Of a stretch of DNA of 64,000 nucleotides, positions 45,889 through 50,300 are shown piece by piece. The stretch lies in contig JAIXWD010000005.1 in the NCBI GenBank assembly GCA_027482225.1, forward strand, positions 1 through 64,000. Reading direction: 5' to 3'. A program made the position numbers and the translations under genes. Under the pieces are notes generated by a model. The model saw only the letters and a program-made list of their open reading frames with translations. It did no database searches and was not told the DNA's origin. Every line of letters starts with the position of its first letter. The first letter of the stretch is position 1. This DNA comes from Bacteroidota bacterium. GTDB taxonomy: Bacteria; Bacteroidota; Bacteroidia; UKL13-3.

Positions 45889-46974
45889 ATGAGTTGGTTA
45901 ATTCCTGATGTTACTTTTTTAGATAATAAATTATTCGATTTACTGCTGTTTGGAGTAATACTATTTATTGGACTTTTATTTAAACGATTTGGGGCCAAGT
46001 TTCTGAGTAAACAATCGTTCCTAATTTTTAAATCTTTTTCTCATAATCAATTCAGTGAGATTTTTATTGATTTACTTCGTAAACCTATAGAGCAACTTAT
46101 TACTGTACTTGTTATCTATTTTGCATTCGAACGACTAAACTTTCCAAGCTATTGGCAATTAGTTTCTATAGATAAAATTGGCATTCGACTAATTATACTC
46201 GTAGTATGGCAAATCGCATTCTTAATTGTTATTTGTAAGATACTATTAAGAACTACCGATTTTTTCACTTTTGTACTTATAAACCGTGAATCTTTACCCA
46301 TCTCTCCTGAGTTAGGTAACTTTTTAAAGGAGTTGATTAAAGTGCTTATAATTGTGCTCTGCATTTTTGCAGGTTTACGCATCATTTTCCATGTAAATAT
46401 TACTGCATTAGTTGCTTCATTAGGTATAGGAGGTTTGGCAGTTGCATTGGCCGCACAAGACACATTAGCTAATTTATTAGGATCATTTGTAATATACCTT
46501 GATAAGCCTTTTAAAACGGGTGATTTAATTGAAGCAGGAGAAATAAAAGGAAGGGTTGAACATGTTGGATTTAGAACCACACGTATAAGAACCTTAGAAA
46601 AAAGTTTGCTTACTGTACCCAATAAAAAGTTAATTGATGTTGCCTTAAACAATATTACACTAAGTGAGGCACGCAGGGTAAAGTTTGAACTGGGGTTAAC
46701 CTATGCCAGCAAATCAAGTCAAATATTAAACATTATTTCAGATATTAAAACCGTGTTATTGAAACACCCCAAAATAGGTGAAGACATTACCGTTCATTTT
46801 ACTGATTTCAGTTCTAGTTCTCTTAATATTTTGGTATTATACTTTGTAATGAGTAACGAATACGAAATAATGGTAGAAGTGCAAGAGGAAGTAAACATAG
46901 AGATAATGGCGATTATAGAAAATCACAGGTGCGAATTCGCATTCCCAACTCAAACCATTTATGTCCAGAAATAA
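45889..46974 (+). CDS. Small-conductance mechanosensitive channel (MscS family)
   Basis: 361 residues with four or five N-terminal membrane helices. The pore helix and beta domain are recognisable from LGIGGLAVALAAQDTLANLLGSF, then DKPFKTGDLIEAGEIKGRVEHVGFRTTRIRT and LTVPNKKL. Such channels release osmolytes during hypo-osmotic shock. It lies 24 bp after polA. The following 410-bp gap contains a separate promoter and RNA. Confidence 0.92.
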   Translation: MSWLIPDVTFLDNKLFDLLLFGVILFIGLLFKRFGAKFLSKQSFLIFKSFSHNQFSEIFIDLLRKPIEQLITVLVIYFAFERLNFPSYWQLVSIDKIGIRLIILVVWQIAFLIVICKILLRTTDFFTFVLINRESLPISPELGNFLKELIKVLIIVLCIFAGLRIIFHVNITALVASLGIGGLAVALAAQDTLANLLGSFVIYLDKPFKTGDLIEAGEIKGRVEHVGFRTTRIRTLEKSLLTVPNKKLIDVALNNITLSEARRVKFELGLTYASKSSQILNIISDIKTVLLKHPKIGEDITVHFTDFSSSSLNILVLYFVMSNEYEIMVEVQEEVNIEIMAIIENHRCEFAFPTQTIYVQK

Positions 46975-47105: not shown

Positions 47106-47136
47106 TTTGTGATTAACAAAATTTCATGCACCTTTG
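47106..47136 (+). promoter_or_regulatory. Promoter of the 47.1-47.3 kb RNA
   Basis: TTTG (47106-47109), 19 bp, then CACCTTTG (47129-47136): one mismatch to TTTG - 19 bp - TAnnTTTG. Predicted transcription start is about 47141. Confidence 0.62.
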
Positions 47137-47140
47137 TGTA

Positions 47141-47296
47141 GAGTTAAAAGAGAAATAAAAATATATTTTTTTTAAAACTTCTCCCAAAACCGATTGCGGG
47201 CGTTAAGCGCAATCCACTAAAATTGCCCTCGTGGGGTTTAATGGTTATACAGGCTAATTAAGGGGCTCTTCGGAGCCCCGAGATTAGCTGTTTTTG
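47141..47296 (+). ncRNA. Unassigned structured RNA with its own promoter and terminator
   Basis: About 155 nt from the predicted start to the T-run. An A/U-rich head is followed by what looks like a three-way junction: AAACC (47187-47191) with GGTTT (47235-47239) closes it; GATTGCG (47192-47198) pairs with CGCAATC (47208-47214); CAC (47215-47217) pairs with GTG (47231-47233). GGGC at 47198-47201 and GCCC at 47225-47228 could pair between the two hairpins as a kissing contact. A strong terminator hairpin ends it. No ORF runs through it. It does not show the marks of SRP RNA, RNase P RNA, tmRNA or a TPP or B12 riboswitch. It may be a small RNA, or an attenuator leader of the outer-membrane gene that starts 89 nt later. 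Confidence 0.6.
47252..47295 (+). terminator. Strong intrinsic terminator with TTCG tetraloop
   Basis: GGGGCTC (47262-47268) pairs with GAGCCCC (47273-47279) around TTCG; an outer stem GCTAAT (47253-47258) with ATTAGC (47283-47288) extends it across a 3x3 internal loop; TTTTT follows at 47291-47295. Confidence 0.88.
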
Positions 47297-47364
47297 TTTA
47301 AAGTATTTTCTATTTCATTTTATTTCTTGCTATTGTCATCCTTCCTGCTGAAATTTGGTGTCTG

Positions 47365-47384: not shown

Positions 47385-50300
47385 GTGAAGAAACTCATTA
47401 AACTCAATCAAATAATTATAGCAGTGCTATTATTGGCACATATGCCTACCAAGCTATTAGCCCAAGGAATGTACACGCAATTTGGTCAGAACCGTGTACA
47501 ATACAATAAGTTTGTTTGGAGTTTTGTGCGCTCAGAAAACTTTGATGCCTATTTCTACTCAGGAGGTAGAGAACTTGCCTCCTTTGCTGCCAGAACAGCT
47601 GAAGAGCAATTAAACAACCTAGAAAAAATTATTGATCATAGACTTAATAGTAGGGTTGAAATTATATGCTACAATACCCAGCAAGAATACAAGCAAGCTA
47701 ATTTTGGTTTATCAGATCAACCAGCCAATTTAGGAGGAGTAACACAAGTAAGTAACAATCGTTTTTTTATTTATTTTAATGGAAACCGTGGCGATTTTGA
47801 AAAACGTATAAAAGAGGGTTTAGCAGTTGTATTAATTAACGAGTTATTATTTGGTGGAAATATACAAGACCGCATTCAAAATGCTGCCTTGTTAAACTTA
47901 CCCGAGTGGTACTTTTCAGGGCTCACCTCTTATATTGCTGAAGAGTGGAATACCACAAACGACAATAAACTCAAAGACCTAGTAAATAGTGGTAAGCTTA
48001 AAAAATTTAATCGGTTAGTATACAAAGAACCTAAACTAGCGGGCCACTCATGGTGGCGTTTTTTAGTTGAGAAATATGGTATTGAAGTAATCTCAAACAT
48101 GCTTTACATATCAAAGCTTAGTAGGAATTATGAAACAGCTTTAATATACGTAGCTGGTATCGATTTAAAACAAGCTGGAAAAGATTGGCTCGATTTTTAT
48201 AAAGAACAATATACCAAAGAAGATAATCTGCGTACTTTACCGCTTCAAGAAATAAAAGTAAAAAAACGATTAACACCCTACATTGAACCCAAACTAAAAG
48301 TTGCTCCCAAAGGCGATTTTATTTCCTTTACAACAAACAAAGGTGGTAAATACAAAGTATGGATCGTTAACCTTAAAACAGGAAAACATAAACGTATTCA
48401 CAAAGGTGGTGTTAAATACTATCAACGCGAATTAGATCATTCTTTTCCAATGATTGCATGGCATCCAGGTGGTGAAAAATTATCTTACGTGCACGAACGC
48501 AGGGGTAAAATTTATATCACAACTGTTGATTTGTTAACGAAAAAGAAGACCAAAATCTTATTCCTTAAGTTTGATAAAATAACAGGTTTTGCATACTCAG
48601 ATAATGGAGGAACACTTATCATATCTGCAATTAGAAAAGGGCAAAGTGATTTGTACTTGTATGATATGCAAACACGCAGAGAAAGACAAATTACTAACGA
48701 CCCTTTTGACGACTTAATGCCAATGTATGTTGATGGTGGTTCTAAAATAATATTTGCATCAAACAGAAATAGCGACTCATTGGGTTCGGCTGCTCCAATG
48801 ACTTTATCTTCTAACAATAACCTAGACATTTACCTATACGACCTAGAACTTATAGGACAAGTGAATGCTTTAAAACGTTTAAGCAATACTCCAAACATTA
48901 ACGAAACACACCCTGTTGAATTCAATAATCAATATTACAGTTACCTTACAGAATATAATGGTATTGTAAACCGATATGCTGTTAGGGTTGAGGAGCAATA
49001 TGATTACTCCGAACTACAGATATTTAGAAAAGATTCACTTCGTACTATAGATACTTTATACTTTGAGCAGTTAGAAGATAAAGGAATTGAATTTACACAT
49101 AATGGAAAAACAATCCGCTTAGGAAATAATGTAGAAAAAATCGACACCATTATTCATACAAAAGATGTAGTATTTACTTACCCACTAACCAACTACAGCA
49201 GGGGAATTATTGCACACGATATTTGCCGTCAAACTCAAAAGCAATACGACTTTGTATTGAACGATAGGCGTTACGTGATATTTGAAGCACCACTTGAAAA
49301 ACAAATAGTAGAAACAGGGAAAAAAACAGAGACTTACCCAAATATGTATAGGTTAAAAACAGGACATGCAACAAAGCCATTTGTAACTGGAGAAGCTGTT
49401 TTTAAACCACGTATATTACCTGGAGAAAACCAAGTGGCTCAGCAAGTACTTGTTCCAAGTAAAACAAAGGAAGATAGTGCCGATAAATTCTTTTTTGTAA
49501 GCGAATTTACACCAAGCACTTTTACTCCCGAAGAAATAAAACCATCGTTTAAACAAGTGGTTACGACATCAGGTAAATTTTTAAAAGTAAGTGCTCCTAA
49601 GTTTTATAATGTCACTTTCTTTACAGATAAATTAGTAACTCAACTTGACAATTCTGTTATCAACTCGTACTATCAACCGATTACTCCAGGTGGTGAAAAT
49701 TTATTTAATACAGGCCTTAATGGTATGTTTAAGTTTGGGTTGGTTGATTTGTTTGAGGATTATAAATTAGTTGGTGGTTTTAGGTTGCCATATAATTTAG
49801 TAGGGGCCGATTATTTTTTAACCTACGAAAATCTTAAACGCAGACTCGATCAGAAAATAACTTTGTTTCGCCAAAGCAGAGAAGGCGCAGCCGAGGGAAC
49901 AGTAACTAAAAATACCGTACACGAAGTTAGGTATGAATTAAAGTATCCTATAAATCAGGTATGGAGTTTACGTGGTAATATTTTTACTCGAGTTGATAGA
50001 GATGTGTTTAAAGGAATAACAATACCTACACTTGCTAAACCAGATAGGGAAGATATTTGGACAGGTTATAAAGGAGAAGTGGTATTTGACAACACCATAC
50101 CTAAAGGCTTAAACTTATTAGATGGCACTAGATTTAAGGTTTTTTACGAGCAGTATATTAACTTTAATAATGAAAAGATAAGACTTAATGCGGCCGGATT
50201 TGATTTGAGACATTACGAACCCATACATAAAAACATTATTTTATGTACGCGCTTAACCGCCAATACATCTTGGGGCAAGCAAAAAGTTAAATATGTAATG

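Follow-up and report, generated by a model that had tools for sequence, protein, structure and literature searches.

Among the closest described systems are FopS and GibS of Bacteroides, which use a conserved single-stranded seed, located ahead of a terminator, to repress mRNAs close to the start codon; this repression is modulated by the RRM protein RbpB, and FopS has also been found on a phage (PMC11697453). Pairing-based repression of SusC-type mRNAs is among the features that mark these sRNAs. A further close system is Rfp18 of Flavobacterium, a structured sRNA that is conserved in a Bacteroidota genus and has predicted mRNA targets (PMC9723704).

The locus compared here with these systems lies in a 64,000-nt stretch of Bacteroidota DNA (contig JAIXWD010000005.1), referred to below as the window. 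A complete small transcription unit occupies the + strand of the 410-bp gap that separates mscS (45889–46974) from a large gene for a secreted or outer-membrane protein at 47385: an RNA of about 155 nt that, as judged from the sequence, is flanked by a Bacteroidota promoter and an intrinsic terminator. The features of the region are as follows.

47106–47109 (TTTG), 19-nt spacer, 47129–47136 (CACCTTTG), + strand: promoter, with identical layout in all ten primary copies.
47141–47180, + strand: AT-rich 5′ hairpin, variable in sequence among genomes and retained as a hairpin.
47192–47214, + strand: P1 hairpin (GATTGCG/CGCAATC), with changes on both sides in six of seven pairs.
47214–47234, + strand: P2 stem (CCAC/GTGG) around a GCCCTC loop, kept in nine copies and compensated in genome G003.
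47225–47258, + strand: nearly invariant 34-nt core, GCCCTCGTGGGGTTTAATGGTTATACAGGCTAAT (alignment of 12 copies; comparison with coding sequence).
47250–47295, + strand: intrinsic terminator, CAGGCTAAT..GGGGCTCTTCGGAGCCCC..ATTAGCTG-TTTTT (sequence, fold and alignment).
47327–47357, + strand: putative promoter-like site that would serve the gene at 47385, TTG-N20-GAAATTTG (read from the sequence).

The core and the AT-rich 5′ hairpin are additions to the initial annotation of this DNA, which had placed a promoter at 47106–47136 and a very strong terminator at the end of the unit. Both of these signals were borne out. A (T)TTG/TTTC-N19(21)-(C/T)AnnTTTG arrangement precedes the RNA in all nine genomes of the genus, as well as in a Pedobacter copy described below, and the window promoter appears close to the sigma-ABfr consensus, which comprises TTTG around −33 and TAnnTTTG at −7 (PMC7366714). 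The terminator, not listed by a simple terminator scanner, consists of a long G+C-rich hairpin (47250–47290) followed by TTTTT; it dominates the predicted fold and is kept in every copy of the RNA. None of 200 dinucleotide-preserving shuffles was as stable as the predicted RNA (z −3.9). An own promoter combined with an intrinsic terminator, taken here as the mark of an independent sRNA gene, is thus present and is kept in the homologues.

The RNA family had not been recognised in the initial annotation, and a comparison of the whole window with Rfam 15 gave no family reaching the gathering score. A search of the region at lax E-values returned chance matches only, and a tRNA/tmRNA search of the window found none. 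The unit looks like a genuine, previously undescribed small RNA gene.

The RNA had been described as a junction of three short stems, of which two were upheld by the homologous gaps. As listed above, P1 shows two-sided changes at 6/7 pairs, while P2 shows one compensatory change: in G003, CCAC/GTGG is replaced by TCAT/ATGG. P2 is absent from the Pedobacter copy and from copy G007a. The third element, the outer helix AAACC/GGTTT, shows no two-sided change, with approximately 75% of its cells paired and about a quarter unpaired. The covariation score of the whole structure exceeded those of all 500 column shuffles and was well above slid controls; since the 12 copies compared are related, this shuffle count is not a probability. 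A full three-way junction is consequently plausible for most of the genus only. The 5′ part evolves fast yet folds, the 5′ domains of ten copies giving z values from −1.1 to −4.0.

Two further pairings proposed for the RNA were not sustained. The GGGC of the P1 loop, which was to form a kissing pair with GCCC, occurs in 7/12 copies. The alternative GCAAT/ATTGC-type fold is possible in 6/12, the closest relatives only. A two-state switch is unsupported: the conserved, mutually exclusive pairings that would characterise a riboswitch or an attenuator were not found.

These observations bear directly on the second reading offered in the initial annotation, according to which the RNA acts in cis, as an attenuator or riboswitch governing the outer-membrane gene at 47385 via conditional termination. 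Such a role would agree with the strong terminator, the structured leader and the position of the RNA, which is located directly upstream of the same gene, in the same orientation, in 9/9 genus genomes. It is nevertheless disfavoured, and we regard it as improbable, since a separate promoter-like site (47327–47357), readable in most of the genus, lies between the terminator and the gene, neither the alternative pairing nor the kissing pair is conserved, and the Pedobacter copy is not upstream of any gene. Moreover, orthologous genes in other genera occur without the RNA: none was seen upstream of orthologues of the downstream gene in the nearest genera. On the other side of the RNA, its neighbour in G007 is a divergent glutamyl-tRNA synthetase-like gene, and the sequence upstream of it in G003 also looks divergent; the RNA therefore does not represent an mscS 3′ UTR. 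On balance, the sequence data favour an independent RNA.

The most strongly conserved part of the RNA is its core (GCCCTCRTGGGGTTTAATGGTTATACAGGCTAAT; 47225–47258), in which only one substitution was found among 12 copies (alignment A2). This sole change (G to A, in G003) restores P2. In the same genomes, the protein encoded downstream is 69–97% identical to that of the window, and the four-fold sites of its gene show 33–40% identity in distant members; over nine genomes, 0/57 four-fold columns are invariant and the longest invariant coding run is 8 nt. Since the four-fold sites of the neighbouring gene are saturated and the core is nearly constant, the core is under very strong constraint at the nucleotide level. 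The view that the locus represents a new Bacteroidota small RNA, also put forward in the initial annotation, is thus well supported by its own promoter and terminator, the covariation, the deep conservation of the core and the lack of an Rfam match.

The core can also be read as a mini-ORF (GTG/ATG GGG TTT AAT GGT TAT ACA GGC TAA), whose leader peptide or tiny protein would then be the actual product. That the single core change turns GTG into ATG is in keeping with this; however, this substitution is the one that compensates for the change on the other side of P2, every synonymous site is invariant, and both start and stop are lost in a sibling RNA of genome G002 (see below). A peptide product is accordingly considered highly unlikely.

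Analysis of the distribution of the RNA (DNA and core-pattern search) revealed its presence in all nine genus genomes examined, in a total of 11 copies, with tandem copies in two genomes. It was detected in 0/55 other genomes of the same family (allowing up to 3 mismatches over 28 nt). A covariance model comprising the core and terminator (R1, built from alignment A5) identified no further member among 395 genomes of the class; in 145 Pedobacter genomes, it found none besides a copy in P. insulae. Weak matches elsewhere in the family were unconvincing, and one-mismatch matches in other families lacked terminators and were taken as chance. Scanning 84,980 species for exact 21-mer matches yielded eight records that are other members of the genus, all metagenome-assembled genomes, plus one outsider, Pedobacter insulae DSM 18684. 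Among plasmids and phages, blastn found no homologue, only look-alikes of the terminator hairpin, and viral contigs gave 0 matches to 19- and 21-nt pieces of the core. In one viral contig (L135, 681–1451), 20 nt of the core occur in frame (GFNGYTG) within an HNH-like endonuclease gene; this 18-mer match was likewise attributed to chance.

The P. insulae copy (L033, 1001–1162; accession no. NZ_FOPP01000010.1), the sole copy outside the genus, has its own TTG-N19-CATATTTG promoter. It converges with a T4CP gene, towards whose 3′ end it points; this gene adjoins a relaxase gene, and there is no gene ahead of the RNA. The 195-kb Pedobacter contig contains no second copy, and the core is not directly repeated in it.

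In the two genomes with tandem copies, G001 (L008, 1501–1735) and G007 (L007/L037), the units are identical over approximately 71 nt (core and terminator) and differ in their 5′ halves. The variable bases of their terminators are shared by the two units of one genome but not by those of the other, as if homogenised. A separate observation concerns G028, from a sister genus, which carries five copies of GGGTTTAATAGTTATCCA (e.g. L132, 1501), probably a repeated element; at the one site examined, no terminator hairpin was found.

An 18-nt piece of the core (GGGTTTAATGGTTATACA; 47234–47251) recurs in the sister genome G002 immediately 5′ of a different terminator, a perfect AAGCCGCGGAA-GGGG-TTCCGCGGCTT hairpin followed by a T-run, and the 5′ part of this sibling differs from that of the genus RNA. 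By rough estimate, an exact 18-mer would occur by chance in nine such genomes with a frequency of about 1e-3, the adjacent terminator not being counted. The motif lies within a phage-like island with an endolysin-like gene, an anti-restriction-like gene and a tyrosine integrase, a short distance downstream of a gene pair for an AAA_15 ATPase and a PIN-domain protein (L144, 9804–11756). This pair is possibly a defence system; the best PADLOC match of the ATPase is NsnB (4.6e-41).

Some copies lie close to mobilisation genes or within a phage-like island. Together with the identical tandem blocks and differing 5′ halves in G001 and G007, this might indicate that the core and terminator form an integrase attachment site duplicated by integration, the RNA being incidental. 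There is very little probability of this, given that the 195-kb Pedobacter contig has no such direct repeat, the G002 motif is situated about 5 kb inside the island, and the promoter and compensatory stems are conserved. A further reading of the same distribution is that of a mobile RNA module, in which an invariant 3′ part (core and terminator) is joined to changeable 5′ halves, and which is carried on a chromosome, next to conjugation genes and, in the form of its central 18 nt, in the phage-like island. Such a module would act via a dedicated protein or RNA partner outside the described sRNA classes; we give this rather little credence.

On the evidence of the sequence comparisons, the unit is probably a small RNA gene in its own right, about 155 nt long, whose product is a regulatory RNA acting in trans. 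Its working part would be the core, which is partly unpaired (TTTAATGGTTATACAGG, together with the GCCCTC loop); the hairpins would protect and present the core, which may base-pair with conserved target mRNAs near the translation start. The order of parts is the same as in FopS, which provides a precedent for this trans-acting reading. The pairing might be assisted by the RRM-domain protein of the genus, as with FopS/GibS in Bacteroides: an RRM_1 protein is present in 7/9 genus genomes and was not found in G007, a genome rated 98% complete in which the RNA occurs twice. No Hfq was detected in the genus. The linked outer-membrane gene would, in the case of a trans-acting RNA, be a neighbour rather than the regulated gene. 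The RNA is, against this, always upstream of that same gene within the genus.

A core this constant also fits a protein-binding site. A serious rival to the trans-acting RNA is therefore an RNA whose core is not an mRNA seed and is instead bound by a conserved protein that the RNA titrates or escorts. The constancy of the core down to synonymous positions and the reuse of its 18-nt piece before another terminator are in line with this, as are the searches for complementary targets, in which no 21-nt complement (long antisense target) was found in the genus and a small duplex test against the window genes gave no target enrichment. There is, however, no candidate partner that tracks the RNA, RRM_1 being missing from G007, and we consider protein binding the less probable function, although one to be taken into account. 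The RNA is of wider interest, as the workings of small RNAs in environmental Bacteroidota are little known. Being fixed in the genus, with a near-constant core, and found also near mobile genes, it offers a well-defined entry point to targets and RNA partner, and it could be put forward as a new Rfam family.

Comparison with known systems, in the case of Rfp18 by description only, shows a likeness in that both are structured sRNAs conserved at the genus level. Purine-type riboswitches, which have a three-way junction and kissing loops, likewise combine an outer helix with two hairpins, and the loops of the window copy may be complementary to each other. In contrast to them, the present RNA has no Rfam match, its kissing pair and outer helix are not conserved, and not every copy precedes a gene.

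The likeness to FopS (RF04319) and GibS (RF04182) comprises a Bacteroidota promoter, a highly conserved, mostly single-stranded segment, an intrinsic terminator and the occurrence of the family on mobile DNA too (PMC11697453). The present RNA differs from them in its extra 5′ hairpins and in having one or two copies per genome, compared with about 14. Neither RF04319 nor RF04182 matched the loci tested (L001, L007, L008, L009, L033 and L055) at E-values up to 1, while both matched a control phage locus (L143), and the similarity to the R1 seed of FopS/GibS (TTTAATGGTTATACA versus TTTAAGGTTAACA) was not significant (p 0.03–0.14). The best reading of these comparisons is that the RNA may work like FopS and GibS without being a member of either family.
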